64,000 nucleotides of DNA. It comes from an uncultured Treponema sp. (lineage in GTDB: Bacteria; Spirochaetota; Spirochaetia; Treponematales; Treponemataceae). The DNA lies in the NCBI RefSeq assembly GCF_946187725.1, contig NZ_CAMHSK010000003.1, positions 62,001 through 126,000 on the forward strand, read 5' to 3'. Each line of letters begins with the position of its first letter. The first letter of the stretch is position 1. Below the pieces are notes generated by a model. The model did no database searches. It had not been told where the DNA came from and saw nothing but the letters and a program-made list of their open reading frames with translations. The position numbers were made by a program, and so were the translations under genes. Shown here piece after piece: positions 16,542-47,027 of the stretch.

Positions 16542-16585
16542 GCTACAAAATGAAAAAACATATAAACATTCCAAAGGGGGAATAT

Positions 16586-19500
16586 ATGAAAAAAGTTTTG
16601 ATTGCGTTTGCGGGGCTTGCAATGCTGTTTGCATCCTGCAGCAATTCAATGGTTGAGAGCTTAACTTCAGAAGAAACGAAAGTTCCTGTTCCTGAAGTTA
16701 AAGTCGTTGCATCTCCATCTAGCTATACTGTTGGTGATGCTTCTTCGCTCATCGCAACTGTAACTGGAAATGGTAACGGAAAGATAAGCTACCAGTGGTT
16801 CAAGGTGACTAAAGAAGGGGAAGAAACAAAATCTACCGAAATCGAGGGAGCTGCTGACTATATTTATGCCTCGAAAGAATCGCTTGCTGGTGACTATACT
16901 TATTTTGTAAAGGTTACAAATACTCTCGGAAAAGAATCAACGAGTGTTGAATCAGACAAAGTGACGGTTACTGTTACGGAAAAAACTACAGCTTCTGCTT
17001 CTATTAAGGATCTTGTATTGAGTTTTGACAAGAGCGTGTATGCAAAAGATGTTACATTCTCTTTGGTGGCAACTGCAAGTACTGCTAACGGTGGAACTTT
17101 GTCTTATCAGTGGTATAAAAATGGTGTAAAAATTACTGGTGCAACTTCTTTTACTTATGAAGCATGTGAAAATGTTGCTGGTACTTATACATACAAGATT
17201 GAAGTCACAAACACATTGAACGAAACTTCAGATACGAAATCTCTTGAAAAAGAGATTATAATTGTTGATGTTGAAAAGAAAGATGCACAAACTCCTGTGT
17301 TTACAAAAGTTCTTGTTTCTAAACAGTATGATGTTGATGCCGAATCTGTTGAGCCACTTTCAACAAAAGCTGTCGTAACTGATGGTGGTCTTATTACTTA
17401 CAAATGGTATCTGGTCGAAGGTGAAAATGAAACTGCCGTTGCTGGTAATGTAGAAAGCTTCATACCTGCTGTAAATAAAGTTGGAAAATTCACATATAAA
17501 GTAGTTGCTACAAACAACAATGCAGGTGCTACTGGAAAAACAACAGCTGAATCTGCTTTGACAGTTATAATTACTGTTGTTGATCCTTCTAAGGTAAATG
17601 CAAAAGCTCCTGTAATCAATACACAGCCTGTTGCTGGCGTGTACGCTGAAGGTGATGAAAATGTTGTGGCTCTCTCTGTAACAGCAACTTCTCCTGATGG
17701 CGGAAAATTGACATATCAGTGGTATAAGAACAATGCGGTAATTGTGGATGCAAATGAAAGTTCTTATAAACCAGCTGTCGATGCTGAAGGTACTTCAACA
17801 TATTATGTCGTAGTGACAAATACTATTGAAGATAACGGTGACGGCGGACAGAAAAGCGAAACTGCTACTTCAGAAACTGTTGTTATTACGGTAAATCCTT
17901 ATGAGCCTGAAGCACCTGTATTTACTAAGAATCTTCCAATGGGAGCTACATACTTGGTTGATGCTGATGAGGTTGTAACTTTGAGCGTTGCTGCTGAATC
18001 TTCTGATGCTACTCCAACATACCAGTGGTACAAGATTGAAGATTCTGAAGTTCTCCTTGCTGGACAAACAAATAAATTCTATGTTCTTTCTCGTGAAACT
18101 GCTGGAACATTCAAGTACTTCTGTCGTGCAACTGTAACAGTAGAAAGAAACAACAAAACTTATACAGCTTCTACTGACAGTAATGTATATACATTCGTTG
18201 TAAAAAATCCAGAGCTTATCGTTAATGCTGCTGAACCTGTTATTACAGCAACAATAAATAATGTTTCTTATGAACAGAATGCACAGGCTTCTGTAATTGA
18301 TGCAACTGCAACTGTAACAGATAATGGAAAAATCACTTATCAGTGGTTCAAATTTACAACAACATGGGAAGCAATTACTGAGAATAGTGAATCAAATGCA
18401 AAATACACACCTGCTACAACTACTGTTGGATCTGTTCTTTATAAAGTTGTAGTTACAAATACTAACGAAAATGTAAATGGTGAAAAAACTGCAAAAGCAG
18501 AAAAAGAAATTGTTGTGACTATAACAGAACCACTTGTTGCAAAAGAACCTGTAATTTCTTCACAGCCGGCTTCTAAGCAGTATAATCTGAACGATGAAGT
18601 TACTGCTCTTTCAGTAACAGCAACTTCTCCAGATAACGGAACTTTGACTTATCAGTGGTATAAGAACGGTGTTGAAATTTCAGGTGCTAAATCTGCTTCT
18701 TATACTCCATCTTCAGATACAGCTGGTGAATTCAATTATAAGGTTGTTGTAACAAACACAATTCCTAATGGAAGCAAAACAACAAAAACTTCTTCAGTTG
18801 CTATTATCACAGTTGTTGATCCAGCCAAGAAAAATGCTGCTGTTCCAACATTTACAACAAATCTTAGTGAAAATCCTGTTGAGTATACAGTTGGCGCAAG
18901 CAATGTAGCTGCTCTTATAGTTGCTGCTACCTCAACTGATGCAGATGCAGAAATCTCTTATGTTTGGTACAAAAATGGTGCAGTTATTACAGGTGCTAAT
19001 GGAGCTTCTTATACACCGATTGTAACTGAGGTCGGCGAATTTACTTATCAGGTTCACGCAATAAGTACTATTCCTGAAGCTGAAGATGTTGGTAACAATA
19101 CTGCATCAGCAGATTCTAAGATTGCAACAATTGTTGTAAATCCAATCCCTGTAATCGATGCAAAGGCACCTATAATTAATACTGATTTGGCTGTTAAATC
19201 ATCTTATGTTCAGGGTGATGCTCTTACACTTACTGTAGCAGCTGTATCTCAGGACGGTGGTTCATTGAGCTATCAGTGGTATAAGGGAACAGAAAAGGTA
19301 GGAACTGATTCTGCTTCTTACACAGTTAATACAAATGAAACAGGAACAACAGGATATCATGTTGTTATAACTAACACTAACGCAAGTGTAAATGGACAGA
19401 AGACCGCTTCTGTTCCGTCTAAAACAGTCAGCGTTGTGGTTACTGCATTTACAATTCCTGAACCACCTGTAACAGTTGTACCAAGTACACAAACAATCAA

Positions 19501-20782
19501 GCTTGGTTCTGAAGTAACACTTACAGCTCAAGTTGAGAATTACGACTCAGATGCTGATTTAGCATATGCTTGGAAACTAAATGAAAATACTATTGATGGT
19601 GCAAATAGTTCTGTTTTAAAATATACACCAAGTGAAGCAACAACATATGCTTTCTATTGTATGGTAACTGCAAGAAAAAACAACGGAAGTTATACGGCTG
19701 TAAACATGAATACCTCTGAGAATGCTTCAGTAACAGTTGTTGACTGGAACGCAGTAACTCCTGTTGTTGAAACAACTTCAACTGATAAGAACTACAATGT
19801 GGGTGAAGCAAATGCAACAGCGCTTGAAGTTTCTGCAACTGTAACTGACGGTGGTACATTGACTTATCAGTGGTACAAGGCTGCAGACGCTTCTGCTCAG
19901 GGAACTGCTATAACAGGTGCTGGAAATGCAACTTATAAACCAGATACTACATCAGCAGATGATTCATACTATTATGCTGTAGTTACAAATACTGTTAAGA
20001 TTGGAGAAGTTACGCGAACTGCAACAACTGAGTCTAGCCGAATCCATATTCAGGTCATTTCTCAGTACAAGTATGCTGCAACTCCTGTAATCAAGACTCT
20101 TGTATCTGCAAATTACAAACAGGGTGAAACTGTAACCGCTCTTGATGCAACTGCAACTGCTACTTCAAGCGGAATGGCTGTTGGTGGACAAATCTCTTAT
20201 CAGTGGTACAGCAATACTACAGAATCTACAGAGGGTGGAACTGCAATTACAAATGCAACAGATGCAACCTATACACCATCTATCGCAAGTGTGGGCACAA
20301 CATACTACTATTGTATTGCTACAAATACAGTTCCTGCTGGTACAGGAGGTCTTGATCCGGACAGTTCAAAACACTCTGCAACTGCGACTTCAACTGTAGC
20401 TAAGATTGTTGTAACTCAGCTTAAAGCAAAGAAACCTATTGCGGCTATTACTGCTAACAAAACATCATACACGATTGGAGATACTGAACAGGTCGTTCTT
20501 ACAGCAAATTGTACCTATTCTCAAACTGATGACGGCGATGAAGGAACTTTAACTTATCAGTGGTATGAAGTTGATGGTGAAACTTTGGATCCGATTGAAG
20601 GTGCTACTGAATCAACTTACACAGTTCCGTCTTATGTATCTGCCGGAGAACACTCTTACACTGTAAAGATTACAAATACAGTGGGCACAGATACTGCTGC
20701 AACTTCTGATGAAATAACTGCACAGAAAATTACGATTACATCGAGCTACGGTTCTGGTGGAATCACAATCGACTTTAACTAA
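16586..20782 (+). CDS. Large lipoprotein of 13 Ig-like repeats
   Basis: A 1398-aa lipoprotein (MKKVLIAFAGLAMLFASC). After a short linker it is built of about 13 Ig-like beta-sandwich repeats of roughly 90-110 aa, each marked by YQWYK (or YQWF, YKWY, YVWY, YAWK) on the central strand, a SYTP segment, and YxYKVVVTNT near the end. No enzymatic domain is visible; it ends SSYGSGGITIDFN. It lies between two starch-degrading lipoproteins, so a glucan-binding, adhesion or scaffold role is likely, but inferred. Two starts are possible: ATG 16550 (AAAGGAGG upstream) would add MKKHINIPKGEY; ATG 16586 (AAAGGGGG upstream) gives the canonical lipoprotein signal and is my choice. Codon use is AT-rich and simple, like its neighbours. 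Confidence 0.85.
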   Translation: MKKVLIAFAGLAMLFASCSNSMVESLTSEETKVPVPEVKVVASPSSYTVGDASSLIATVTGNGNGKISYQWFKVTKEGEETKSTEIEGAADYIYASKESLAGDYTYFVKVTNTLGKESTSVESDKVTVTVTEKTTASASIKDLVLSFDKSVYAKDVTFSLVATASTANGGTLSYQWYKNGVKITGATSFTYEACENVAGTYTYKIEVTNTLNETSDTKSLEKEIIIVDVEKKDAQTPVFTKVLVSKQYDVDAESVEPLSTKAVVTDGGLITYKWYLVEGENETAVAGNVESFIPAVNKVGKFTYKVVATNNNAGATGKTTAESALTVIITVVDPSKVNAKAPVINTQPVAGVYAEGDENVVALSVTATSPDGGKLTYQWYKNNAVIVDANESSYKPAVDAEGTSTYYVVVTNTIEDNGDGGQKSETATSETVVITVNPYEPEAPVFTKNLPMGATYLVDADEVVTLSVAAESSDATPTYQWYKIEDSEVLLAGQTNKFYVLSRETAGTFKYFCRATVTVERNNKTYTASTDSNVYTFVVKNPELIVNAAEPVITATINNVSYEQNAQASVIDATATVTDNGKITYQWFKFTTTWEAITENSESNAKYTPATTTVGSVLYKVVVTNTNENVNGEKTAKAEKEIVVTITEPLVAKEPVISSQPASKQYNLNDEVTALSVTATSPDNGTLTYQWYKNGVEISGAKSASYTPSSDTAGEFNYKVVVTNTIPNGSKTTKTSSVAIITVVDPAKKNAAVPTFTTNLSENPVEYTVGASNVAALIVAATSTDADAEISYVWYKNGAVITGANGASYTPIVTEVGEFTYQVHAISTIPEAEDVGNNTASADSKIATIVVNPIPVIDAKAPIINTDLAVKSSYVQGDALTLTVAAVSQDGGSLSYQWYKGTEKVGTDSASYTVNTNETGTTGYHVVITNTNASVNGQKTASVPSKTVSVVVTAFTIPEPPVTVVPSTQTIKLGSEVTLTAQVENYDSDADLAYAWKLNENTIDGANSSVLKYTPSEATTYAFYCMVTARKNNGSYTAVNMNTSENASVTVVDWNAVTPVVETTSTDKNYNVGEANATALEVSATVTDGGTLTYQWYKAADASAQGTAITGAGNATYKPDTTSADDSYYYAVVTNTVKIGEVTRTATTESSRIHIQVISQYKYAATPVIKTLVSANYKQGETVTALDATATATSSGMAVGGQISYQWYSNTTESTEGGTAITNATDATYTPSIASVGTTYYYCIATNTVPAGTGGLDPDSSKHSATATSTVAKIVVTQLKAKKPIAAITANKTSYTIGDTEQVVLTANCTYSQTDDGDEGTLTYQWYEVDGETLDPIEGATESTYTVPSYVSAGEHSYTVKITNTVGTDTAATSDEITAQKITITSSYGSGGITIDFN

Positions 20783-20793
20783 TTAAAACACTT

Positions 20794-20866
20794 TCTCCAT
20801 GCGGCGGTTTGCTGTGTGGAGATTTTTCATTGGGAATCTTGATTTTTATTTGGGATTCCCAATTTT
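20794..20866 (+). terminator. Two tandem hairpin terminators
   Basis: First: 20794-20805 with 20811-20822, 12 bp including three G-U, then five T. Second: perfect 9-bp TTGGGAATC/GATTCCCAA (20830-20838, 20854-20862) then TTTT. Only about 24 bp remain before the next gene. Confidence 0.75.
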
Positions 20867-20890
20867 CTATCAAATTTTTAGGATTTGTTT

Positions 20891-23800
20891 ATGAAAAAAA
20901 CATGTATTCGAAAATTGGTAGCAGGAATAGGCATTTTTGCGGCACTCAGTTTTTCTTTCATTTCCTGTGCCAATCTTATTGAGTCAAATAGAGTAGCAGA
21001 ATCTTCTACAGAATATGGTTCGATTACGATAAATGGTGGGAAAACTGCTGATTCTGAAAGCCGCCGGATTGATGTAAGTACAATTACGAGTGCAACTGTA
21101 ATTGTAAGTGGTTACGGAATGCAGGATATGGTTAAGAATAATGTTACAATTTCTAGTGGTCAGGGAAGTGTGACAATCGATAATATTCCTGTTGGTCGTC
21201 GCGTTGTAACTGTTCAGAGTAATGTTACTGGTGTTGTTATTCGCGGATATGCGGATGTCGTGGCTTCTGCTACACCCACTTCATGTACGGTTAACTGGGA
21301 AACTACAAAAATTGCAACTGTATATTATGAACTTATAGAATCTTGTTCAGAAGTTGCTGGAATTGATTCTGCTTCTTTCAGTTCTAAGATTCCTGATGTA
21401 GGTTCATCTTTGTTTAATGCAGAGAAATTTGCCAAAGATTTTAAGACTGCAAACTTTATTTCAACTGGAATGAATCCAGTTGATTACATTTTGGATTTTG
21501 GAACCGTAAGTGTAACAACAACGAATGCTGCCGGATATAAAGTACAGATTACTGATTCTGCAACTGATGTAAAAACGATTTCTGGTGCCGACGATACATT
21601 TACCTTGAAAGCTGCTCCTGGAACTTGGAAAGCTTGGGTTCTGGATTCAACTGGTACAAAAGTAGCAGAAAAAGATATCACCGTAGTTGCCGGCGAAACC
21701 AGCACCGTGGATGTGAAGTATAATGCTGGTAGTAATGTCACTGGAAAAATTGTTGTTCATGTGCCTTCATCTTTAGGCTATAAGTATATTTGGGCATGGG
21801 CTACTTCAGGTAATACTAATTACACTGGTGGTACATGGCCTGGAAAAGAAATGACTTTAAATGGCTCAAATTATGATTACACAATCAATCAGACTGCTTG
21901 TAAAATAATATTTAATAATAATGCTGGTTCAACTGTGGGTACAAACCAGACGAACGACCTTTGGATTACTGAAGGTGAATGGAATTATATTGGTGGAAAA
22001 GCAGGCACAAAAGATACTACAGGAAGCAGTGTTGCTTCTAACTTTGAAGAAGTTCCTTCTGAACCTGGAATTACCCTTACCGTAAACAGTGCCACCCCAC
22101 ATGGTGATGCTGTAAAGATTTATGTTTCCAGTACAAGCGGTGCACCAACACTTTGGGCATGGACAAGCACTTACAACAATATAACTACAGCGGTTTCTTA
22201 TCCTGGAGTTACAATGACGGCTGCAACAGATTTGAACGATAATACTGGCTGGTATGTTGCAGAAATGGATACCGATAAGATTGATACAAACAATACAGAG
22301 ACAATATCGTTTATCCTAAACTCTGGAAGCAATATTGTATCTACCAAAACCACAACCTTCTGGTACGATGCCGCAGGTCTAGTGGGCTCTGCAAATGCTT
22401 ACTATGATTCTGACCAGACAACCGTTCCAGAGCCAGTTGCACCGACATTGGAAATAACTCCAGCAAGCGGAAAGGAAATCGGAACAAGTTCTTCTATTAA
22501 GATTACGGCAAACTTTGGTTACGATACAGCTACTGTAAAAACAGCAACAATCAACGGAACTGAACATACACTTTCTGAAGGTGTAAATACATTCCTTGTT
22601 TCTGATTATGAAACAGAAGCTGGAAAGACAATTACAGTAAGTGCAACTTTGACAAACAGCAAGGGATCTGTTACAAAAGAAGCAACTTATACAACTAAAG
22701 TAACCAAGGAAGACCCATTCACTTGGGATAATGTAAACTGCTACTTTGTTCTTACTGACCGATTCTATAATGGTGATACTGGAAATGACCATAGTTATTA
22801 CCGTCAGAATGCATCAAATAATGCAACGCTTGCAAGCGGTTATAATAATGTTGCAACTTTCCATGGTGGCGATATTAAGGGGCTTACCGCTAAAATGGAT
22901 TACTTCAAGAAACTTGGTGTAAATGCAATTTGGATTACTGCTCCTTATGAACAGGCTCACGGTTGGTGTACAGGTGGCGGTAACGGTTTCCCTCATTATG
23001 CGTTCCATGGATATTATACTCAGGATTGGACCTATATGGATCAGAATATGGGTACTATTGAAGAGTTCAGAACTTTTGTACAGACATGTCATGCAAACGG
23101 AATTCGTGTTGTTATGGACGTTGTTATGAATCATACCGGTTACAATACTGTAGAAGATATGATTAGTTATAACTTCGGAAATTACTCTTTGATTACCAAG
23201 GGGCATGGCTGGTGTGAAAATACAGGTTCTTGGAGTGCAAATCCTGATGCTTCCGACTCAAATGGTTACTGGTCTGGTACTAACTGGGATTTATGGTGGG
23301 GAAAATGGATTCGTTCATTTAATTACTCAACCTGTTTAACTGGTAATGGTGATTGGGATAAATGTGGCAATTCAGGACTTCCTGATGTTCGTTCAGAAAT
23401 GGAGGAAATCGTAGATATTCCTACATTCCTTCAGACAAAGTGGACTAATGAACCTGATGCAACAACTGTTCCAGCAGCTACAGGTAATACACTTGAACAT
23501 ACCTATGGCGATTATAAATTGCCTTCTGTTTCTGATGTTGACTGGTGGAACAAAACTGGAGACTGGCGTGGTAATAAATGTGGCTGCCCTGTAGAATATC
23601 AGATTGTATGGCTTTCAGGTTGGGTTCGAGAATTTGGTATTGACGGTTTCCGCTGTGATACAGCAAAGCATGTTCAGCCTAAGTATTGGGGAATGTTGAA
23701 AGATGCCTGTGAGGATGCTCTTGATAAATGGAGAAATGATTCTAATAAGATAGATGAGTCTGGAGCAAAAGATTGGGACGAAGGTTTCTGGACTACAGGT

Positions 23801-24577
23801 GAATGTTTTACATATTACAATGCAAATGGTGGTCGAAGTGATCCGACATATTTTGGTACAAATGATCAGGGAAAGTTTGACTCAATGATCAACTTTTCTA
23901 TGAATGAAAATCATTCAACACCAACAAATTCAAAGTATCCAAGTACAGAGAACTGGGCTACTTATGCTGCAACATATGCAGCCAATGTAGATTCTGATGG
24001 TAATGGTAATAAGGATAACTCTTTGATGTATCTTTCAAGCCATGATACTTCATTGTGCCGTCCTAGTGACCAGTATGATGTTGGTACGAATTTTGTGCTT
24101 CTTCCGGGTGGAATTCAAATTTACTATGGTGATGAGTCTCTTAGAGGATCTGCATTTACAGATTGTGGTGATAACGATATGACTACCCGTGGAGATATGA
24201 ACTGGTCGGATGGAAGTATTTCTGGTAGTGCAAGCAACGGAACTGCAAATGATTCACTTGTTGCACACTGGGGTAAACTTGGTAACTTCCGTAAGTACAA
24301 TCCTGCTGTTGGTGCTGGTGTTCAGACAGTTAGTGGTTCTACTTATGTACGAACATATTCTGGTGCTGCTGGGGAAAATAAAGTTGCTATTAGTTTGACA
24401 TCTAAAACTGTTACAGGTTTGCCTTATTCAGACGGCACAACCGTCTACAACTGGTACGATGGAAAAAGTGCAATTGTAAGCAATGGTTCTGCTGCATTCA
24501 GTGAATCAAGTGCTTCTACAAGTGCACCTGTTCTCTGTTCTGACAGGAATCCCGCTACTTACGGTGTAACCTTCTAA
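20891..24577 (+). CDS. Surface lipoprotein alpha-amylase (GH13, MalS-like) with two CBM26-like domains
   Basis: A 1228-aa lipoprotein (lipobox SFISC). Order: N-terminal module like that of the first amylase (GSITINGGK, DNIPVGRRVVTV), two starch-binding CBM26-like domains (VVHVPSSLGYKYIWAW and VKIYVSSTSGAPTLWAW starts, about residues 285-385 and 395-510), an Ig-like domain, then the GH13 barrel from NVNCYFVLTDRFYNGD. Region I is DVVMNHTGYN, the nucleophile is in DGFRCDTAKHV, the acid in TTGECF and the stabiliser in LSSHDT. The long insert with DWWNKTGDWRG and FRxDTAKH resembles E. coli periplasmic amylase MalS (GH13_19). ATG 20891 follows AGGA at 20880-20883; an in-frame TTG at 20885 is less likely. 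Two terminators precede it and one follows. Confidence 0.9.
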   Translation: MKKTCIRKLVAGIGIFAALSFSFISCANLIESNRVAESSTEYGSITINGGKTADSESRRIDVSTITSATVIVSGYGMQDMVKNNVTISSGQGSVTIDNIPVGRRVVTVQSNVTGVVIRGYADVVASATPTSCTVNWETTKIATVYYELIESCSEVAGIDSASFSSKIPDVGSSLFNAEKFAKDFKTANFISTGMNPVDYILDFGTVSVTTTNAAGYKVQITDSATDVKTISGADDTFTLKAAPGTWKAWVLDSTGTKVAEKDITVVAGETSTVDVKYNAGSNVTGKIVVHVPSSLGYKYIWAWATSGNTNYTGGTWPGKEMTLNGSNYDYTINQTACKIIFNNNAGSTVGTNQTNDLWITEGEWNYIGGKAGTKDTTGSSVASNFEEVPSEPGITLTVNSATPHGDAVKIYVSSTSGAPTLWAWTSTYNNITTAVSYPGVTMTAATDLNDNTGWYVAEMDTDKIDTNNTETISFILNSGSNIVSTKTTTFWYDAAGLVGSANAYYDSDQTTVPEPVAPTLEITPASGKEIGTSSSIKITANFGYDTATVKTATINGTEHTLSEGVNTFLVSDYETEAGKTITVSATLTNSKGSVTKEATYTTKVTKEDPFTWDNVNCYFVLTDRFYNGDTGNDHSYYRQNASNNATLASGYNNVATFHGGDIKGLTAKMDYFKKLGVNAIWITAPYEQAHGWCTGGGNGFPHYAFHGYYTQDWTYMDQNMGTIEEFRTFVQTCHANGIRVVMDVVMNHTGYNTVEDMISYNFGNYSLITKGHGWCENTGSWSANPDASDSNGYWSGTNWDLWWGKWIRSFNYSTCLTGNGDWDKCGNSGLPDVRSEMEEIVDIPTFLQTKWTNEPDATTVPAATGNTLEHTYGDYKLPSVSDVDWWNKTGDWRGNKCGCPVEYQIVWLSGWVREFGIDGFRCDTAKHVQPKYWGMLKDACEDALDKWRNDSNKIDESGAKDWDEGFWTTGECFTYYNANGGRSDPTYFGTNDQGKFDSMINFSMNENHSTPTNSKYPSTENWATYAATYAANVDSDGNGNKDNSLMYLSSHDTSLCRPSDQYDVGTNFVLLPGGIQIYYGDESLRGSAFTDCGDNDMTTRGDMNWSDGSISGSASNGTANDSLVAHWGKLGNFRKYNPAVGAGVQTVSGSTYVRTYSGAAGENKVAISLTSKTVTGLPYSDGTTVYNWYDGKSAIVSNGSAAFSESSASTSAPVLCSDRNPATYGVTF

Positions 24578-24587
24578 AAAGGGGCGT

Positions 24588-24675
24588 TGCGGGGAAAAAC
24601 GGTAGTTTTGCCCCGCAGAGGGGGTAGCCGATTCTTTAGATGAGGCGTAGGGGGAGACGGCCCCCTCATTTTTTT
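24588..24675 (+). terminator. Double GC-rich hairpin ending in a T-run
   Basis: Hairpin 24588-24600/24605-24617 (12 of 13 paired, GGTA loop), then GAGGGGG..CCG (24618-24630) with CGGCCCCCTC (24658-24667) followed by seven T. It serves the amylase gene and touches the stop of the convergent FAD-subunit gene. Confidence 0.75.
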
Positions 24676-25480
24676 ATGTCAACTGTTCAAGCGAATATTT
24701 CACAAGATTCCAGAATTGTCTTTTTAAAATCAAATCTACATTTTCGTTTTCAACGGCTTTATTGAATGAATCTTCGGCTTCGAGCAGAAATGTTGAGATT
24801 GCGGTCTGCGAAAGGGGCAGGTGCGCACCAATCAGTTTATTTTCCAGTTCAATGTCACGGAATTTGAAGGAACCCGCAAAGGCGATTCTAAGGTCAGAAA
24901 TCTGATTTTTCTGTGAATTTGCAAGAAAAACGAAACTGGCGGAGAGCTTATTCAGTTTGTTTGGCAGGGAGAGCTTTTTGAAGACAGAAACCTCCCATTC
25001 TTCAAGCGGAAGTCGCACTTTTGTAAGGAGCGTTTTGCTTGGCATCGAGACGAATCTTGTTATGTTCTGAAAGAAAATTTCATCTCCGGTCTGGAATTCA
25101 AGTCGCGCGTCCAAAGCGAGCAGTGTGGCGTACAGGGTGCTGTAGAAATCTTTTATGCTTATGTTGCCACCGATTGTCGCTATGTTTCTGATGTTTTGTG
25201 TCGCGATTGATTTGATTGCACTGTACATTGTGGGTGGCAGGTTCGCTTCACCCAAATCTTCAATTTCGGAAAGCGTTACTGCAGAGCCAAAATCGATGTA
25301 TCGTTCGTGCTTGTCGATTATTTTTAACTCTGCTATGTCACGGACGGAAAGTGAATTTTCGGGAAGTTCTTTTTCAACAAAGGATGTGCAGCCCGCAACA
25401 ATCGTCAGGTTTGAGATGGTCTTCATCTGATAAAAAACATCGCTCAGGTTCTTTGCGTAGAAAAAATTTTTAGATGCCAT
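24674..25480 (-). CDS. Xanthine dehydrogenase-type FAD-binding subunit, divergent
   Basis: A 268-aa protein with the layout of the CoxM/XdhB FAD subunit of molybdenum hydroxylases. The two FAD motifs are recognisable: TIVAGCTSFVEKEL (usually AGGT) near residue 31 and ATQNIRNIATIGGNISI (usually A-x-Q-I-R-N-x-A-T-x-G-G-N) near residue 100. After that the usual third motif and charged pocket are weak, and the C-terminal CO-dehydrogenase flavoprotein domain is short. It normally passes electrons from the iron-sulfur subunit to NAD or another acceptor. ATG 25480 overlaps the upstream 2Fe-2S gene by 11 bp and has GGAAGG before it. Last gene of the minus-strand operon. Confidence 0.75.
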   Translation of the reverse strand: MASKNFFYAKNLSDVFYQMKTISNLTIVAGCTSFVEKELPENSLSVRDIAELKIIDKHERYIDFGSAVTLSEIEDLGEANLPPTMYSAIKSIATQNIRNIATIGGNISIKDFYSTLYATLLALDARLEFQTGDEIFFQNITRFVSMPSKTLLTKVRLPLEEWEVSVFKKLSLPNKLNKLSASFVFLANSQKNQISDLRIAFAGSFKFRDIELENKLIGAHLPLSQTAISTFLLEAEDSFNKAVENENVDLILKRQFWNLVKYSLEQLT

Positions 25481-25955
25481 TTTTCCTTCCTTCCCGCTCG
25501 TGTCTGTTTGCCGTTGCGTAAATTACGCCGTTGATGAAGGTTTTTCGGTCGGTGCAGTTGCATTTTATGCAGTCAGCGAGTTGTTCAAGTTCTTCTGAAG
25601 TCGGTCGGTAGACTTTTTTGAGCAGAGCGTAAGTTGAGAAAACCCGTGCACTGTTACAGTAACCGCACATGTTTACTCCGGCCTGTTTGAATCCAGAGAT
25701 AATGTCTTCGCCTTCTTTTGTCATGAGGAAAAATTCCAGCGTTTCGATTGTGGCATTTCTTACGATTCCGACCGGGATTATGCAGCTTGAGACAGGTTTT
25801 TCATCAAGAAGGACGGTGCATGAACCGCAGAGACCCTTTGTGCAGCCTTCCTTTACGGAGAGAAGTCCATTTTTTCTTAAAACATCGAGAAGTGGCTCAG
25901 TTGGTTTTGCGTCCAGAATTCGCTTTTCGCTGTTCAGTATTACTGGAATTTTCAT
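25470..25955 (-). CDS. Xanthine dehydrogenase-type 2Fe-2S subunit
   Basis: A 161-aa protein with the CoxS/XdhC two-cluster layout. The plant-type ferredoxin cluster is intact: EGCTKGLCGSCTVLLDEKPVSSC. In the second domain CGYC and CIKCNC keep the four cysteines, but the family's QCGFCTPGM is NMCGYCNSAR, so the Gln that faces the molybdopterin in known structures is lost. It therefore probably binds both clusters but may not face a normal molybdenum cofactor. ATG 25955 overlaps the stop of the large subunit as ATGA, with GGAG upstream, so the two are coupled. Confidence 0.8.
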   Translation of the reverse strand: MKIPVILNSEKRILDAKPTEPLLDVLRKNGLLSVKEGCTKGLCGSCTVLLDEKPVSSCIIPVGIVRNATIETLEFFLMTKEGEDIISGFKQAGVNMCGYCNSARVFSTYALLKKVYRPTSEELEQLADCIKCNCTDRKTFINGVIYATANRHEREGRKNGI

Positions 25956-28174
25956 TTTTCGTCTCCGGGAATTGTTTTGTTCGAAAGTTCATGCGGTTCC
26001 ATGATTTTAAAAAGTGAATCTGATTGAAGCGGAACTTCGCTCACCGTAACCGCAAGTGCCTGTGAGAGCGCAGAGGTATAGGCCGCCGGGAGCATCGAAT
26101 AGACAAGATGGCCGATTTGCTTAGGTTCTTCTTCGGATTTTGTAAATTGCACCGAAATTGACGGACATTTTAATGTATCTTCGTCAACGAGCGTTGAAAG
26201 ACAGCGCTGGATTGCCCGGTATACGGAATTTTCGGCCGCTTTCGGTGATAAAATCTTTCCGCCGTCAATAATTACGCAGATTTTGCGAAGATTTTCACGG
26301 AAAGTGCAGGTGTCAAGTTCAAGCTCAACCGTGCAGGTTCCGAATGCCGTGTTGTAAAATGGTGCGCCTGTGAATTCTTCCTGATTCCATGCTTTTTTTC
26401 TTGAAACCGGGAGGCTTTTTTTTACGGAAAATGCTGTGCCGTCGATCTTCTTTCGCTTGATGGCTTCAACGCATTTTTTTAAGAGAATTGTCTTTATGCT
26501 TGAAGTTCCAATCAATGTGTCAGGTATTTTGACAGGCGGATTTTTCTTGCCTTCGTTTTCGTTGCTTGCTTCGTTTGTGAAGACGATGTTCCGCTTTTCG
26601 AGTTCAAGGCCTTCCATGATGATTTTGAGCCAGATTTCTTTGATGGAAGGTGATGGCGGATATTCGTTGACTACGATTTTTTTGTCTTCCGTTACGGAGA
26701 TTTGGACAGAGATGTTTGATTTTTCAAAATTTGTGCCCAGATAGCCGCTTCCGTCGTAAGCACAGGCGAGCCCGATTCCGCGCATTGGCGGTGAATAAGA
26801 CAATTTTCCTTCGTTTTCGAAACGATTTTTGCCTGCGAGTCTTGCAACGGCGAATTTTCGTTTGAAGTCACTACGAATTGCCACTGCATTGATTGCGTCA
26901 ATTGAGCGTCCGAATGAAAAACTGAACGGTTTGGTCATTTTCTGAAGGCCGCCGGCTTTGTTCATTTGCCGCAAGTCCACTGGAGAAAAGCCCGTTATGT
27001 CAGCAATTTTCTGAATCTGATTTTCAACTGCAAAAAACGCCTGCGAATCAATCATCGAAAGGTGCAGGGAAGAAGGCGGATTGCTGCTAGAGTATGCTTT
27101 TGCGTCAACTTTCACATTCCTACAGTTGTAGATTCCTGTGCTTGCGATTGCAAGGCGATCGAGTATGTCCGAGGCAAAAGGATTGCAGGAACCGGCATCA
27201 AATTCGATTGAGATGTCCATTGCCGAAATTATGCCGTTTTTGTCCAGAGCCGTTTTATGCGAAATCGTTATGTCTGGCGGGAATTCGATAAGTTCTTCAT
27301 GCGCTTTTCTTGAAAGAGAGAATTTGACGGCCTTTCCTGTTTTGAGGGCGGTGAGTGCGGTAAGGGCTGCGAAAATGCTGTTAATCCAGAGCGAATTTGT
27401 TGTTTTTACGGAAATTCTTGTTCTGGTGACTATGATTTTTTCTTTTGGAAAGCCGGTCACTTCTGAAACTGTCTGCCGTAATTCTGAAATCCAATGGCTA
27501 GGCGTAAAAATGTGAAGATTTCCGCCTTTTTGATAGCAGAGAACGCCGTCTGTTTCTTTGTTTGTTCGATAGTGAATCCGATTTTTCCAAAGCCCCTCGA
27601 TTATGTATGCCGCTTTTTCTTCATCGGCGAAAATTTCACCTGGATTGCCGACGGTATATTTTCTTCGTGCTATGATTCTTTTGCCGTCGCTTTCTGAATA
27701 ATGTTGTAATGGAGCGGGGAAAGCAGGAAGGTCTTGCAAAGACTTTTTTTGCTCCTCTGTGATTGTTGAAAGATTTTTGACAGAATCAGCGAATTTTTCT
27801 TCATGTTCCTCTAAATCTTTTTTATCAAGAGTGATTTGTACTGATTTTTCCAGTTCAAGCAAGGTCTCTTTGTCCGGGCCGGCCAGAATTGCTACCGGTT
27901 CCCCTTTGAAAACAATTTTGCCTGAGCAGAGAATCGGAATGTCGGTTCCGAGAATATTAATCCATTTTTTTTGAGGAAGGTCGTTGTGCGTGATTAGAAT
28001 GCAGTCTTCGGGAACTTTGATTTTTGGGTCAAAGCAGATTGTTGAAATCACGCCGTCGGAAAATGGACTTCTGATTAAAATGGCATGAAGCATGTCCGGC
28101 GCAGTCATGTCGCTGTAAAATTCATCTGAGAAAAGGGTCTTTTTTTTGTCACTTGCTTTTCTCTTAGCGGCCAT
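25952..28174 (-). CDS. Xanthine dehydrogenase-like large subunit lacking molybdenum-cofactor motifs
   Basis: A 740-aa protein with the overall order of XdhA/CoxL: hammerhead domain (about residues 18-130, LHAILIRSPFSDGVIS.., IVFKGEPVAIL), then two MoCoBD-like regions. The key motifs are missing: GGGFGGK is replaced by RISVKTTNSLW, AFRGFGxPQ by SLHLSMIDSQ, and the GVGEP loop with the catalytic Glu by GHLVYSML. Scaffold residues around them (QAFFAVENQIQKIADITGFSPVDLRQMN) still align. It is thus probably not a molybdenum hydroxylase; a structural or other catalytic role is open. ATG 28174 has GGAG 10 nt upstream and overlaps the aminotransferase gene by 11 bp; an in-frame TTG at 28189 is less likely. 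Confidence 0.7.
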   Translation of the reverse strand: MAAKRKASDKKKTLFSDEFYSDMTAPDMLHAILIRSPFSDGVISTICFDPKIKVPEDCILITHNDLPQKKWINILGTDIPILCSGKIVFKGEPVAILAGPDKETLLELEKSVQITLDKKDLEEHEEKFADSVKNLSTITEEQKKSLQDLPAFPAPLQHYSESDGKRIIARRKYTVGNPGEIFADEEKAAYIIEGLWKNRIHYRTNKETDGVLCYQKGGNLHIFTPSHWISELRQTVSEVTGFPKEKIIVTRTRISVKTTNSLWINSIFAALTALTALKTGKAVKFSLSRKAHEELIEFPPDITISHKTALDKNGIISAMDISIEFDAGSCNPFASDILDRLAIASTGIYNCRNVKVDAKAYSSSNPPSSLHLSMIDSQAFFAVENQIQKIADITGFSPVDLRQMNKAGGLQKMTKPFSFSFGRSIDAINAVAIRSDFKRKFAVARLAGKNRFENEGKLSYSPPMRGIGLACAYDGSGYLGTNFEKSNISVQISVTEDKKIVVNEYPPSPSIKEIWLKIIMEGLELEKRNIVFTNEASNENEGKKNPPVKIPDTLIGTSSIKTILLKKCVEAIKRKKIDGTAFSVKKSLPVSRKKAWNQEEFTGAPFYNTAFGTCTVELELDTCTFRENLRKICVIIDGGKILSPKAAENSVYRAIQRCLSTLVDEDTLKCPSISVQFTKSEEEPKQIGHLVYSMLPAAYTSALSQALAVTVSEVPLQSDSLFKIMEPHELSNKTIPGDEK

Positions 28175-29354
28175 GATGCTTTTCTCCAACTTGTTTTACT
28201 GCTTCAATTACGATTTTAGCCTTTTCTTCACCCATGTCAGGATAAAGAGGAAGAGTGATTGTGTTTGCGGTATGCCTTTCTGCGTTCGGAAAATTTTCGG
28301 CCCTGAAATCAGGATATTTTTCTTTCCAATAAGTAAAGTGGAACAGCGCGATAAAATGCATTGAAATTCCGATTCCAAGCGATTGAAGTTCCGAGGCAAA
28401 TGTGTTTCGGTCGCAGTCAAGTTTTTCTGGATTTATCTGAAGCAGATAAAGATGCCATGAATTTCCTTCGCCATCTGGAGGAAGCGTGAGATAATCACAA
28501 TCTTTGAATGCTTCATTGTAGATTTTGACGATTTTTTTGCGTTTTTCGTCAAATGATTTTGCCTTTTTGAGCTGAACCCGGCCGATTGCACTCAAAATGT
28601 CCGGAAGATTTGATTTGAAACCTGGGGCGATAATATCGTATTCCCAGCTTGCTTTTGGATTTGTGTAGCGGTCCCATGCGTCTCTGTTCATTCCATGCAG
28701 ACGCATCTGGCTCATTCTTTTGGCGAGTGCGTCATTGTTTGTAGTCAGCATTCCGCCTTCACCGGTCGTCATTGTTTTTGTGGCGTAAAACGAAAAGACT
28801 CCGACATCGCCAAGCGTTCCCGCGAATCCATTTGCGGTAGGACAAGGGAAAGAATGTGCCGCATCCTCGATGACATAGATTTTGTTTTCTGGAGTGGAAT
28901 ATTTTTGCGCAAGCTCGTTGATTTTTGCCATGTCACAAAGATTTCCTGCGACATGAACCGGAACAATTGCGCAGATTTTATGCTCCGTGTCGTTTTTTAA
29001 GATTTTTTCGATTTCTGAAGGCGAAATTGAGTATGAATCTTTTTCGATATCGGCAAAAAAAACATCTCCGCCCAAATGAACTGCACAGGCTGCTGTAGAG
29101 ACAAAAGTGTAGGGCGTTGTAATGACGGCTTTGCCCGCTCTGACACCGCAGGCTTCCATTGCAAGAATCATTCCGCTGGTGTTTGAGTTGACCGCGAGCG
29201 CATGTTTTGAGCCTACATAAGCGGCAAATTCCTGTTCAAAAGCGTGAGTGACACTGCCTGTCGTGAGCCAGAGTGAATCAATGACATCGCATACGGCTTT
29301 TTTTTCTTCATCATCAAAAGAAGGTCTGAAAAACGGAACTTTTATCTCGGACAT
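28164..29354 (-). CDS. DegT/DnrJ/EryC1/StrS sugar aminotransferase
   Basis: A 396-aa PLP enzyme of the family that aminates nucleotide-linked keto-sugars. PFFRPSFDDEEKKAV at the start, LWLTTGSVTHAFEQEFAAYVGSKHALAVNSNTSGM (phosphate-binding Ser/Thr), VIEDAAHSF (Asp and His stacking on PLP) and FSFYATKTMTTGEGGML (Schiff-base Lys in SFYATKT) are all present. It would use the keto-sugar made by the CapD-like protein encoded just upstream, for surface glycan or flagellin-type glycosylation. TATAAT at 29361-29366 ends 6 nt before ATG 29354 with no ribosome site, so the last four genes of the block can also start from their own, leaderless promoter; an in-frame TTG at 29372 lies inside that promoter. 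Confidence 0.92.
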   Translation of the reverse strand: MSEIKVPFFRPSFDDEEKKAVCDVIDSLWLTTGSVTHAFEQEFAAYVGSKHALAVNSNTSGMILAMEACGVRAGKAVITTPYTFVSTAACAVHLGGDVFFADIEKDSYSISPSEIEKILKNDTEHKICAIVPVHVAGNLCDMAKINELAQKYSTPENKIYVIEDAAHSFPCPTANGFAGTLGDVGVFSFYATKTMTTGEGGMLTTNNDALAKRMSQMRLHGMNRDAWDRYTNPKASWEYDIIAPGFKSNLPDILSAIGRVQLKKAKSFDEKRKKIVKIYNEAFKDCDYLTLPPDGEGNSWHLYLLQINPEKLDCDRNTFASELQSLGIGISMHFIALFHFTYWKEKYPDFRAENFPNAERHTANTITLPLYPDMGEEKAKIVIEAVKQVGEKHHGR

Positions 29355-29417
29355 AGAAATATTATAACGCAAAGCGGAGAAAAGAGAAACTAGAGAATCG
29401 TGGATTAACGCAGATGA

Positions 29418-30920
29418 TTACAGATTCATCGAGTCGTTTTTTTGCGTTACTTTGTAGTATTCGTCCAGAGTCGGAACTGCTTCCCTGAGGATTGAAATGA
29501 GCTTTTCTTTGTTGCGGAAACTTTCTTCATCACCATTGAAACAGCAGATTGGCTCAAGTTTTTTTAGAAGAATATCCAGCTTGTCATCGCCGAATTCGAT
29601 GTTTTTAAGAACCAGAACCTTTTCATAGTCGGTCTTCTGCGGATTTTCTTCTGAAAGCCAAAGCGGCTCGTAAATCCGTTCGCCTTCTCTGGCACCAATG
29701 ATTTTAATTTCGATGTCTTTACCTGGTTCGTGCCCTGAGAATTTGATTATCTGTTCAGCCAAATCGATTATTTTGATTGGCTCGCCCATATCAAGAAGAT
29801 AGGACTTTCCATTTTCACCAACACCGCCGGTTTCAAGTACGAGAGAACATGCTTCTGGAATCGTCATGAAAAAGCGTTCCATTTCTTTGTCAGTTACTGT
29901 CACAGGTCCGCCGGTTTTAATCTGCTGCTGGAAAAGAGGAAGAATTGAACCTCGTGAGCCAAGAACATTGCCAAACCTTACGAACATGAAATCCTGATCA
30001 TAAGAGGCTTTTTTTGAATATTGTAGGATAAGCTTTTCGCAGAGCATTTTGCTTGCACCGTAAACGCTTACAGGACTTACCGCCTTGTCGGTTGAAATCA
30101 AAACGAAACGCTGAACTCCGCATTCAATAGCGGCATCAAGCAGATTTTTTGTTCCAAAAACATTGTTTTCGATTACGGCAACAGGATTTTCTTCCATCAT
30201 TGGAACATGCTTGTAGGCCGCACAGTGGAAAATAACATCAGCGCGGGTTTTTTTGATGATATAACGAACATATTCCCTGTCTTTCATGTCGCCGATGATT
30301 GGAACAACAGTCGCCGCTTCGCCAACACCTTCCTGTTGTAAAACATGAAGTTCACGGTAAATCTGAACGATTGAATTTTCTCCATGCCCAAAAAGATAGA
30401 GACGTTCTGCTCCACCCGAAAGGAGCTGACGCGAAAGTTCTGAACCGATTGAACCGCCTGCGCCTGTAATCAAAACTCGTTTTCCACGAAGATATTGCAG
30501 GCTTTCATGCAGCGGAATGATGATTGGAGTGCGGCCAAGAATGTCGAGAGGGTCAATTTCGCGGGTCTGTACAAAATGCGCCTTTCCGTCAATAATCTGG
30601 CTTACGCTTGGGAGAATTCGGATATGGGCAAAACCGCCCTTTTTTAAGACCTCGTAGATTTCACGGATTTTTTCTGTAGGTGCGGATGGAATTGCAATTA
30701 TTGCTTCATCAAGAGGGCCGCATCTAAGCAGTTTTGCAACTTCGGAAATCGTTCCAAGAACCGGGATTCCGTCAATCTGCGTTCCAATAAGATTCTTGTC
30801 GTCATCCAGAAATGCCGCAACTGTACCGAAGACTTTTTTGCGCCGCAAGTCCTCTGCAATCATTTGACCGGCAAAGCCGGCTCCGATTATGTAAATCTGT
30901 GAATCACTCTTCTGTAGCAT
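29418..30920 (-). CDS. CapD/FlaA1/WbpM-type nucleotide-sugar dehydratase/epimerase, soluble form
   Basis: A 500-aa protein with two Rossmann parts: an N-terminal CoA-binding-like domain (IYIIGAGFAGQMIAEDL, residues 9-25) and a C-terminal SDR domain (RVLITGAGGSIGSELSRQL, about residue 150; STDKAVSPVSVYGASKMLCEK with Tyr and Lys). The four N-terminal membrane helices of PglF/WbpM are absent, so it is cytoplasmic. It likely makes a 4-keto-6-deoxy sugar nucleotide that the following aminotransferase converts to an amino sugar. Its start overlaps the GGDEF gene by 17 bp; its last codons (DSMNL) run into a degenerate copy of the ACGCAGAT repeat. Confidence 0.9.
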   Translation of the reverse strand: MLQKSDSQIYIIGAGFAGQMIAEDLRRKKVFGTVAAFLDDDKNLIGTQIDGIPVLGTISEVAKLLRCGPLDEAIIAIPSAPTEKIREIYEVLKKGGFAHIRILPSVSQIIDGKAHFVQTREIDPLDILGRTPIIIPLHESLQYLRGKRVLITGAGGSIGSELSRQLLSGGAERLYLFGHGENSIVQIYRELHVLQQEGVGEAATVVPIIGDMKDREYVRYIIKKTRADVIFHCAAYKHVPMMEENPVAVIENNVFGTKNLLDAAIECGVQRFVLISTDKAVSPVSVYGASKMLCEKLILQYSKKASYDQDFMFVRFGNVLGSRGSILPLFQQQIKTGGPVTVTDKEMERFFMTIPEACSLVLETGGVGENGKSYLLDMGEPIKIIDLAEQIIKFSGHEPGKDIEIKIIGAREGERIYEPLWLSEENPQKTDYEKVLVLKNIEFGDDKLDILLKKLEPICCFNGDEESFRNKEKLISILREAVPTLDEYYKVTQKNDSMNL

Positions 30921-32292
30921 AATTCTCTTCGTAAATCTCGCAGCCGCGTTTGCCTTTTTCTTTTACGATGTACAGGGCTTTGTCTGCTTTTTTAAATAAT
31001 TCATCATTGTAACCGTTTTTAGAAAATGCAACGCCAACGCTGATTGAAACTGGTTTTATTCCGTCTTTGATGTTGAGGAGTTTTTCATTGACACTCAGAA
31101 TTTTTTGCTTGATTATGTATGCACTCTGTCTTCCACAGTGCGGCATGATTACAGAGAATTCATCGCCACCGATTCTTGCGACATAATCATCAGTTCGGAA
31201 AGTTTCGGTAAGAATGCGTGAAAGCTCCTGAAGTGCAATGTCGCCGCCAGCGTGACCGTAGTTGTCGTTTATGCACTTGAAATTATCCATATCGATGAGA
31301 AGTAGTGCAATCTGCTGTTTTTTATCTGCGGAAGTCTGGCAAATCTGGTCAAAGGCCCGTCTGTTTAAAATGCCTGTGAGTGCGTCATATTCTGCCTTTT
31401 TAAGAAGTGACTGTTCGTTCTGTGCTTTAAGGTCATAAATTTCGTTGTAACTTTCGGCAAGCTGCTTGCATTCCAATGAACCGATAACGCTCAATTTTGT
31501 ATCGTTCTTAATCGAATTCTTGAAATTTTCGAGAGGAAGAATTATGAGGTAAGCGAATGAAATGAAAAGAATTACATTTACGATTAAGAGCAGAAGAAAA
31601 AGGAATCTGAGTCGCTGAATGTTTGTACCGAGTTCGTCAGCATTCATGTTCAGCTCGTCTTTGATTTGATTTTCGATAGCAGCAATTGTGAGACGGCAGT
31701 TTTCGTTGATTCGTGTTTTATAGATGAGGTAGCCTTCGCTGTAAAGGTTGTTGAGGGCTGTTTCCTGAAGTTGTTTGGAAGTTGTGTTTTCATCAATGCC
31801 ACGAATTGGAATTTCTGCGATTTGTGGCGGAATGTTTTCGCTGTTGATAACCTGATATGCCAGTCGGATGGCGTAAAGCTCCATTTTAATAAGGCTGTTG
31901 CACTGTTCGATAGCGATTTTAAGACGCTGCAGTGCAAGGTCTTTTTCGGAACAGACTTTTTCCAGATTTTCGAGAGCCTTTTCCTGCCTTTTGGCAATAT
32001 TGATTTCTTCGAGATAATCCTGAGCGTACATTTCTTTGTGCGTAACGACAAAGAGCCTGGCCCTGTCAGTAAGGTAATTTGAACTTTCCTTGATGAGTTC
32101 TGAACTCTGCTCGCAGATTACGAATTTGGCGATGGCATGTTCAACTGCATGGAAGCGGGAATTTACTGTAGCAGAGATAATAAGAATAAAACCGAATACA
32201 ATTGCCGTGAGAACGATGAAAAAAATGTCGAGAAACTGAATGTTGATTCCTGTTACGGAATGTTGCTTTTCTGAATTCTGCTTGTCCTGCAA
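30904..32292 (-). CDS. Membrane-bound GGDEF diguanylate cyclase
   Basis: A 462-aa protein: membrane helix at about 20-42, a helical extracytoplasmic region to about 235 (four-helix sensor type), second helix at about 236-258, and a C-terminal GGDEF domain from AEYDALTGILNRRAF. The active site is RIGGDEF, intact, and an inhibitory site RTDD lies five residues before it. It should make c-di-GMP from GTP under product feedback. No ATG is available near the N-terminus; the start is TTG 32292, with GGGAGA about 11 nt upstream on the minus strand. It overlaps the CapD gene, so polysaccharide sugar supply and signal are produced from one message. Confidence 0.9.
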   Translation of the reverse strand: MQDKQNSEKQHSVTGINIQFLDIFFIVLTAIVFGFILIISATVNSRFHAVEHAIAKFVICEQSSELIKESSNYLTDRARLFVVTHKEMYAQDYLEEINIAKRQEKALENLEKVCSEKDLALQRLKIAIEQCNSLIKMELYAIRLAYQVINSENIPPQIAEIPIRGIDENTTSKQLQETALNNLYSEGYLIYKTRINENCRLTIAAIENQIKDELNMNADELGTNIQRLRFLFLLLLIVNVILFISFAYLIILPLENFKNSIKNDTKLSVIGSLECKQLAESYNEIYDLKAQNEQSLLKKAEYDALTGILNRRAFDQICQTSADKKQQIALLLIDMDNFKCINDNYGHAGGDIALQELSRILTETFRTDDYVARIGGDEFSVIMPHCGRQSAYIIKQKILSVNEKLLNIKDGIKPVSISVGVAFSKNGYNDELFKKADKALYIVKEKGKRGCEIYEENYATEE

Positions 32293-43715: not shown

Positions 43716-45803
43716 ATGAAACTTAACAGTCTTAAAACTAAGTTGCTGCTTCTTTTGCTTTTAATTGTCGTGATTTCCAATGTTGTTTTGGGATTGATTG
43801 CCTATACCATGTCAAAATCTTCGCTTGAGGCTTCGGTTGAGCAGACAATCACCACGATTTCAGAGAAAATCGCTTCTCAGGTGGCTTTGGGAAATGAGCG
43901 GGAATTCAAGATGCTTGATTCGCTTGCAAGCATGGCGATTCTGCAGGATCCGGATGTTCCTCTTGCCGAAAAAAGCCAGATGCTGCTGAAAGTTGCAAAA
44001 ATCGATAAAAAATATGAAAACATCGGCTATTACGATGCAGACGGTATGAGCATCACGAGCGACGGTCAGGAAGTTGATTTGTCTGACCGTGAGTATTTCA
44101 AGCGCGCTTTTGCTGGTGAGCATTATGTTTCGGACCCGGTTTTCAGTCCTGTAAACAATCTTTTGCTCATGATGTATTCAGTTCCTGTTTATAATGAAAG
44201 TCGTACAAAAATAATCGGTGTTATCTGTTCTATTTTCCATGGCGCAACGCTTTCTGATATGTGTAAAGAAATTTACATCGGTAAGGAAAGTCATCCTTTT
44301 GTAATCAATATGAAGAGTGGCAAAACTGTTGCTGATGCTGATGTTAAATATGTTGAGGAAGGTCAGGTTCTTAAAGATGCAACTACGGGTGCGATGAATG
44401 AGGCTATCCGGGCTGCAATGAGCGGTGATACTAATTATCGAATCTTCTTTGAGCCGTGGCGCAACAAAGATGTGGTCGCTTCTTTCAGGCCTGTTGGTGG
44501 CGGATGTGACTGGGCTGTTTTCTGTATGGCTCCTGCTGATGAATTCTTTGGTTCAATTACCAGAATGTCTGTTTCAATGCTCATTTCTGTAGCAGTGATT
44601 CTTGTGATTGCCATTGCCCTCAGTGCGTTTATTATTTCAATCAGTCTTAAACCGTTAAAAGCTGTAGAAAATTCAATTACTGAAATCGCGAGCGGAAATG
44701 CTGATTTGACCCGAAGAATTAAGGTTACTACTAATGATGAAATCGGAAATGTCGTTAAGGGATTCAACAGCTTCACTGAAAAACTTCAGAATATAATTGC
44801 AAGTGTCAAACATTCTAATTCAAATCTTGGAAGTGTTGGTTCTGACATGAGTGCGAGCGTTGATGATACTGCAAGTTCAATCACTCAGATTATCGCAAAT
44901 ATTGACAGCATGAAAAAACAGATTGACAGTCAGAATCAGTCGGTAAGCCAGACTGCCGGGGCTGTTAACGAGATTGCTTCGAATATTGAATCTTTGGAGC
45001 GCATGATTGAATCTCAGTCAAGCGGCGTAACAGAGGCAAGTGCTGCTGTCGAAGAGATGATTGGCAATATTTCTTCAGTAAACATGTCGATGGATAAAAT
45101 GGCTCATTCATTCAGTGATTTGCGGTCAAATTCTCAGGTCGGAATTTCAAAACAGAAGGCCGTCAATGACCGAATCAATGAAATCGAAGGTCAGTCACAG
45201 ATGCTTCAGGAAGCAAATGTGGCAATTTCTGCAATCGCAAGCCAGACTAACCTTCTTGCCATGAATGCGGCAATTGAGGCGGCTCATGCTGGTGAAGCTG
45301 GAAAGGGCTTTGCTGTTGTAGCTGACGAAATCCGCAAGCTTTCAGAAACATCAACTGCACAGTCAAAGACAATTGGTGACGGAATCAATAAAATCCGTGA
45401 TTCAATCGGTGCTGTCGTTTCGGCTTCTGGGGAAGCGAGCGTGGCCTTTGAGTCCGTTTCTCGCAAACTTGAAGAAACCGATGCGCTTGTCATGCAGATT
45501 AAGTCTGCAATGGAAGAGCAGAACGAGGGAAGTAAGCAGATTACTGATGCACTGCATAATATGAATGACAGCACTGTTGAAGTACGCAATGCTTCAAGTG
45601 AAATGGCTGAAGGAAACCAGATGATTCTCAAAGAGGTTCAGATGTTGCAGAATGCGGCCATGACGATGACTCAGGGTATGGAAGAAATGTCTATTGGTGC
45701 GAGAAAAATCAATGAGACTGGTGCTGCCCTCAATGGAATTGCTTCAAAAATGAATGAATCGATTTCTGAAATCGGCTCGCAGATTGATCAGTTCAAGGTG
45801 TAA
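43716..45803 (+). CDS. Methyl-accepting chemotaxis protein with dCache sensor
   Basis: A 695-aa receptor. Membrane helix at about 8-30, a periplasmic double-Cache domain (about 35-280; ENIGYYDADGMSITSDGQEVDLSDREYFKRAFAGEHYVSDPVFS is typical), second helix at about 288-312, HAMP (SLKPLKAVENSITEIASGNADLTRRI), then the signalling coiled coil with its tip SQTNLLAMNAAIEAAHAGEAGKGFAVVADEIRKLSE at about residue 507. It would modulate CheA for flagellar motility. No CheR-tethering pentapeptide is at the C-terminus. AAAGGGG precedes ATG 43716. No other chemotaxis gene is adjacent. Confidence 0.95.
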   Translation: MKLNSLKTKLLLLLLLIVVISNVVLGLIAYTMSKSSLEASVEQTITTISEKIASQVALGNEREFKMLDSLASMAILQDPDVPLAEKSQMLLKVAKIDKKYENIGYYDADGMSITSDGQEVDLSDREYFKRAFAGEHYVSDPVFSPVNNLLLMMYSVPVYNESRTKIIGVICSIFHGATLSDMCKEIYIGKESHPFVINMKSGKTVADADVKYVEEGQVLKDATTGAMNEAIRAAMSGDTNYRIFFEPWRNKDVVASFRPVGGGCDWAVFCMAPADEFFGSITRMSVSMLISVAVILVIAIALSAFIISISLKPLKAVENSITEIASGNADLTRRIKVTTNDEIGNVVKGFNSFTEKLQNIIASVKHSNSNLGSVGSDMSASVDDTASSITQIIANIDSMKKQIDSQNQSVSQTAGAVNEIASNIESLERMIESQSSGVTEASAAVEEMIGNISSVNMSMDKMAHSFSDLRSNSQVGISKQKAVNDRINEIEGQSQMLQEANVAISAIASQTNLLAMNAAIEAAHAGEAGKGFAVVADEIRKLSETSTAQSKTIGDGINKIRDSIGAVVSASGEASVAFESVSRKLEETDALVMQIKSAMEEQNEGSKQITDALHNMNDSTVEVRNASSEMAEGNQMILKEVQMLQNAAMTMTQGMEEMSIGARKINETGAALNGIASKMNESISEIGSQIDQFKV

Positions 45804-46952: not shown

Positions 46953-47027
46953 GAGATTGTAGCTCAGTTGGATTAGAGCATCTGCCTTCTAAGCAGAGGG
47001 TCGCGTGTTCGAATCACGCCAGTCTCA
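46953..47027 (+). tRNA. tRNA-Arg (anticodon TCT)
   Basis: A 75-nt cloverleaf: acceptor GAGATTG/CAGTCTC (one G-U) with A73, D arm GCTC..GAGC, anticodon stem TCTGC/GCAGA with loop CTTCTAA, so TCT reads AGA, and T arm with GTTCGAATC. CCA is not encoded. Confidence 0.95.

Follow-up and report, generated by a model that had tools for sequence, protein, structure and literature searches.

A xanthine oxidase-family trimer of Treponema that has lost its molybdenum-cofactor loops and is maintained across the genus

What becomes of a molybdenum hydroxylase when the residues that surround its cofactor are gone? This question is raised by a 64,000-nt stretch of DNA (hereafter the window) from an uncultured Treponema sp. 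(assembly GCF_946187725.1, contig NZ_CAMHSK010000003.1, positions 62,001 to 126,000), in which three genes at 24674-28174 on the reverse strand encode the large, iron-sulfur (Fe-S) and flavin adenine dinucleotide (FAD) subunits of a xanthine oxidase (XO)-like complex. An earlier reading of the letters (the original prediction) had described an XO-like trimer at this place that has lost its molybdenum (Mo) site. The trimer is indeed there: its three genes are intact and overlap one another, the large-subunit gene starts at an ATG that is preceded by GGAGA and falls among the final codons of the gene upstream, and all three products have Pfam matches above cut-off (MoCoBD_1 at 102.7, MoCoBD_2 at 37.7 and Ald_Xan_dh_C at 34.4 bits for the large subunit; Fer2_2 at 38.1 and Fer2 at 33.9 bits for the Fe-S subunit; FAD_binding_5 at 89.8 bits for the FAD subunit).

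In alignments with solved structures and with XO homologues from the same phylum, the large subunit of the window has SVKTTNS at the position of the GGGFGGK loop and LHLSMIDSQ at that of AFRGFGxPQ, and its QIGH is aligned to GVGE, with His in place of the catalytic Glu. We found no misplaced cofactor loop in the large subunit; the alignments have other residues at both loop positions. Both loop motifs are incomplete or absent in all of the distinct trimer large subunits that were compared (82/82). The predicted loss of three motifs thus holds in the window and, for the two loops, throughout the family, but the loss of the Glu is not general: this column holds E in 29/82 (L096 and L099 have such members) and G, N, H, S, D and other residues in the rest. 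Such free variation also argues against the Glu still acting as a catalyst. For comparison, the Pfam model was used to find canonical XO paralogues elsewhere in the phylum, in part within the genus itself, and 13 were chosen; these retain GGxFGxK and the Glu in 13/13 and the Arg of AFRGFG in 12/13.

The AlphaFold model of the large subunit matches the large subunit of nicotinate dehydrogenase (3hrd_A; Z 34.6, root-mean-square deviation 2.9 over 374 residues), and through this fold match both Mo loops can be placed in the credible part of the fold. The region of the Glu falls outside the confident model, and its assignment comes from the sequence alignment only. By descent the trimer belongs to the XO family, yet the features that define the Mo site are not found in it, and the label "molybdenum hydroxylase" is inappropriate.

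The Fe-S subunit of the window contains nine Cys in total, including all eight cluster Cys, together with the predicted MCGYCNSA. The eight cluster Cys are complete in 41 of the 78 distinct Fe-S subunits, and in 29 further ones the CxC pair has become CC, in which ligation may or may not persist. In the FAD subunit, the main residue of each motif column is present in 71-78 of the 78 sequences. These patterns suggest that the medium subunit binds FAD and that the small subunit, in most lineages, binds two [2Fe-2S] clusters.

The original prediction had further held that the losses are concentrated at the cofactor of a protein that is maintained, and both parts were borne out. Ranking of the alignment columns by conservation, in a sample that is rich in one genus and in which all values are therefore raised, put the positions of Mo loop 1 at the 3rd-69th percentile and the Glu column at the 41st; four positions of loop 2 stand at the 10th-16th percentile, with the new D at the 83rd and the new S at the 76th. 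Seven of the eight Fe-S Cys rank at the 90th-98th percentile (C132 at the 57th), and the FAD motifs mostly at the 90th-100th, their main Gly and Thr residues at the 94th-100th. Constraint is thus gone from the Mo loops and retained on most of the Fe-S Cys and on the FAD motifs. The ratio of nonsynonymous to synonymous substitution rates (dN/dS), a check that the original prediction had proposed, was calculated for pairs of relatives with estimable dS. It came to about 0.04-0.18 in the large, 0.04-0.12 in the Fe-S and 0.03-0.14 in the FAD subunit, compared with 0.03-0.26 for the neighbouring aminotransferase and 0.02-0.09 for the dehydratase.

Relatives of the trimer were found across the family, the order and the class. 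They span several of the families in the class, and one of them, from the same family, belongs to a genome that is a single contig of 1.14 Mb (G244, locus L087). Weaker matches outside the class but within the phylum (E ~1e-17 and above) are not counted as trimers here, and a contig scan beyond the phylum with a single query sequence returned close relatives only. In a tree built from 55 large subunits of the trimer together with 12 canonical paralogues (those of the 13 that were long enough), the trimers fall on one side of a branch with a Shimodaira-Hasegawa-like approximate likelihood ratio support of 100 and follow the taxonomy, with some long branches. The trimer is therefore one clade, apart from the canonical XO paralogues of the phylum, and is probably vertically inherited.

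Can the hosts supply a Mo cofactor at all? The genome search that had been proposed for this point found no MoaC, MoaA or MoeA in the host genome (98% complete), and control genomes were positive; the only MoCoBD_1 protein of the host is the large subunit of the window. Within the genus the large subunit occurs in 194 of 196 genomes (84/84 of high quality) and MoaC in 18 of 196 (8/84). MoaC is absent from 26 of 41 chosen genomes of the class, and MoeA was present in 3/21 and MoaA in 2/27 of the class genomes. In a genome of the same genus (G160, L112; 99% completeness) an XO large subunit looks canonical (233 bits), and MoaC was not found; another genome (G409; L088, L110, L122) encodes MoaC and, besides its trimer, two XO proteins, with no MoeA_N match found, and in its trimer (L088) the N-terminal Fe-S cluster is mostly lost.

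The trimer genes usually follow two genes of amino-sugar metabolism. The order dehydratase, aminotransferase, large, Fe-S and FAD subunit is kept in most of 47 loci, which include several same-genome loci read twice. The aminotransferase and large-subunit genes are coupled in 43 of 45 pairs, with a median spacing of -8 nt (an overlap), as are the dehydratase and aminotransferase genes in 37 of the 39 pairs where a dehydratase was found. The dehydratase is closest to PglF/WlaL (5bjy, E 5e-74) and the aminotransferase to ArnB (E 3e-69), the best NCBIfam model of the latter being PseC; the NCBIfam equivalog cut-offs of PseB and PseC are missed (186.8 vs 407.75 and 334.8 vs 423.5 bits). Since the region of the pyridoxal phosphate lysine, SFYATKTMTTGEGGM, is retained with no His replacement, the DegT protein next to the trimer is an aminotransferase. 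Electron supply by the trimer to a ColD/E1-type dehydrase (CDP-hexose 3-dehydrase) was considered and rejected, as the DegT protein retains its lysine.

Taken together, we lean towards reading the trimer as a maintained, vertically inherited and Mo-free derivative of XO that works as a flavin-centred oxidoreductase and is usually linked to amino sugars. This reading is built on the observed homology, fold, loss of the Mo loops, missing cofactor pathway in most hosts, purifying selection and linkage to the aminotransferase; the redox activity and the sugar substrate of the trimer we infer. That the trimer is Mo-free we hold with high confidence, a role in an amino-sugar pathway in most species appears probable, and flavin-based redox chemistry has about an even chance. 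The large subunit would then act as a scaffold and docking site, its former cofactor pocket bearing an (I)DSQ stretch that is new and in part conserved. In most species electrons would pass between FAD and a partner through the Fe-S clusters, and the substrate would be either a product of the 4,6-dehydratase/aminotransferase amino-sugar pathway or one of its partners; in lineages without clusters the flavin step or a scaffold role alone may remain. More tentatively, the whole XO complex may have become, at an early stage of the class Spirochaetia, a flavin/Fe-S enzyme that does without Mo, whose former cofactor pocket (the genus-typical IDSQ) hosts a new ligand or a new reaction and which takes part in making a sugar of the spirochaete cell envelope or flagellum.

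Several results weigh against this favoured reading. L087 has lost the ligands of the N-terminal (FAD-side) cluster, L088 and L048/L052 have lost most of them, and in L105 and L102 those of both clusters are gone while the complex is retained. In XO enzymes the electron path links FAD, through the Fe-S clusters, to the cofactor pocket; by analogy, the loss of Fe-S ligands would break this chain in several lineages that keep the complex, and no single redox mechanism fits all members. A trimer-specific catalytic set of His, Asp or Cys was sought in the large subunit and none is visible, the clearest trimer-specific invariants being W233, R444 and K445 (745-aa numbering). The AlphaFold model of the large subunit is confident for about residues 23-405 only, and that of the FAD subunit was poor (predicted local distance difference test score 49) and was left unused. 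Finally, one family (f12; L102, L106) keeps the trimer where the sugar genes have no orthologues or have been replaced: one of its genomes (G414) gave no aminotransferase match whatsoever, and the others gave distant relatives only. The sugar link is therefore strong and not obligatory. A flagellin glycan as the sole role of the trimer, also considered, is unsupported as a general rule, because this family without the sugar genes still has the trimer; the family's likely members are non-flagellated.

The main rival holds that the trimer is a non-catalytic scaffold, a pseudoenzyme that positions or regulates proteins such as the aminotransferase and the dehydratase. We consider this somewhat unlikely. 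It would explain why the three genes stay together although the Mo loops are lost everywhere and Fe-S ligands in several lineages, why new catalytic residues are not seen, and why evolution is fastest in the large subunit (which shares 22% identity with its counterpart in L087, the sugar genes 51-60%); however, the FAD motifs and most of the Fe-S Cys are among the best-conserved columns, which would be odd for a pure scaffold, and the trimer persists where the orthologues of the sugar genes are gone. The original prediction itself had offered two roles. One of them, a non-Mo sugar-modifying enzyme, agrees with the usual position of the trimer behind the aminotransferase and the PglF-like dehydratase, but not with the one family that lacks their orthologues. 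The other, an Fe-S/flavin electron carrier whose large subunit does no substrate chemistry, agrees with the retained FAD motifs and with the high ranks of seven Cys columns, and most lineages do keep the ligands; we judge it improbable nonetheless, given the missing or mostly missing FAD-side cluster, or both clusters, in the lineages named above and the altered CxC of the other cluster in 29/78.

Less probable still is that the trimer remains an enzyme of Mo, or of another metal-pterin, with an imported cofactor and a rearranged site. The XO fold, the Glu in part of the family and MoaC in some hosts could speak for it, but both loops are gone in all 82 members compared, the loop columns are unconstrained and most hosts are without MoaC, MoaA or MoeA. 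That the genes are a decaying remnant or an annotation artefact could be argued from the lost motifs and from an internal in-frame stop in the large-subunit frame of one metagenome-assembled genome (L013, G114), which reflects either sequencing error or decay; this explanation is refuted by the dN/dS of 0.03-0.18, the genus-wide and class-level retention and the intact, overlapping genes.

The closest relative in the PDB is the nicotinate dehydrogenase of Eubacterium barkeri (3hrd); sequence comparison gives this result for each of the three subunits, and fold comparison for the large subunit. Both complexes have separate FAD and Fe-S subunits; the dehydrogenase carries the Mo loops and the Mo cofactor, whereas the trimer has neither loop and most of its hosts are without the pathway. 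The XdhABC-type xanthine dehydrogenases and pucCDE share the three-subunit architecture and are the best NCBIfam matches, but the trimer scores far under all of their equivalog cut-offs (for pucD, 95.7 vs 783.65 bits). As for the sugar genes, the dehydratase and aminotransferase that adjoin the trimer are homologous to those of the PglF/PglE and PseB/PseC pathways and below the PseB/PseC cut-offs; to our knowledge, an XO-like trimer is not part of either pathway.

A survey from 2018 reported several hundred genomes with orphan proteins of the XO or DMSO reductase families and an incomplete cofactor pathway; a Mo-independent form was raised there as an option, the orphans showed no sequence feature, and the survey could not establish whether they function without Mo (PMC6147048). 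Like those orphans, the trimer consists of XO-family genes without the cofactor pathway, and unlike them it supplies a sequence feature, the loss of both cofactor loops throughout the clade. Here the absence of the Mo site is demonstrable, and selection keeps the protein even where the whole genome measures 1.14 Mb, so that the question whether orphan XO proteins work without Mo becomes testable. The clade also forms a natural series of cofactor loss, with Mo lost first, Fe-S next in some lineages and the FAD motifs last. An old metal-enzyme scaffold thus appears to have been turned to a different use in many spirochetes, usually in cells without Mo-cofactor synthesis, and xanthine dehydrogenase activity should not be predicted from such annotations.

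Table 1. Features of the window at and around the trimer genes.
Feature	Position	Strand	Remarks
Large subunit	25952..28174	-	740 aa; XO-family molybdopterin-binding fold without Mo-cofactor loops
Two-cluster [2Fe-2S] subunit	25470..25955	-	161 aa; eight ligand Cys; MCGYCNSA replaces QCGFCTPG
FAD-binding subunit	24674..25480	-	268 aa; AGCT...TIGGN motifs
DegT/ArnB-type nucleotide-sugar aminotransferase	28164..29372	-	11-nt overlap with large-subunit start; SFYATKTMTTGEGGM lysine region kept
PglF-type UDP-GlcNAc 4,6-dehydratase homologue	29418..30920	-	first gene of the conserved five-gene block
G+C-rich stem	24649..24667	+	directly past the FAD-subunit stop; consensus match only

Further genes lie around this block (Table 1). 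The stem may end the facing plus-strand gene, because its scored T run is on the plus strand. In T. pallidum, TP0077-TP0081 are what we take to be the same operon, and nothing on these genes was found in the main texts of the papers searched. In 31 of the 47 loci the block has, close to its dehydratase end, a gene for a SPOR-domain (peptidoglycan-binding) protein (e.g. L092:2082-3638), with no convincing relative found in the window; the interactome of T. pallidum lists a "capsular polysaccharide biosynthesis protein" as a binding partner of the SPOR-domain protein TP0297 (PMC2386257). We take this proximity and this interaction as a lead only. In L098 and L101-L106 the FAD-subunit gene is followed by a gene of 1136-1243 aa, assigned to DnaE by Pfam in L104 and by size only in the others, which suggests an ancestral trimer-dnaE gene order in class-level relatives.

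In the window, a GGDEF-looking gene (30904-32292) overlaps the dehydratase start by 17 nt; its position is conserved in the nearest relatives (L035, L037, L043) and not in most others. Beside the block, on the opposite strand, a 1410-aa repeat-rich lipoprotein-like and a 1230-aa alpha-amylase-like protein are encoded at 16550-24577. Two genes for tRNA-Arg (44486-44572 and 46953-47027), which share the anticodon TCT, lie within 2.6 kb of each other.

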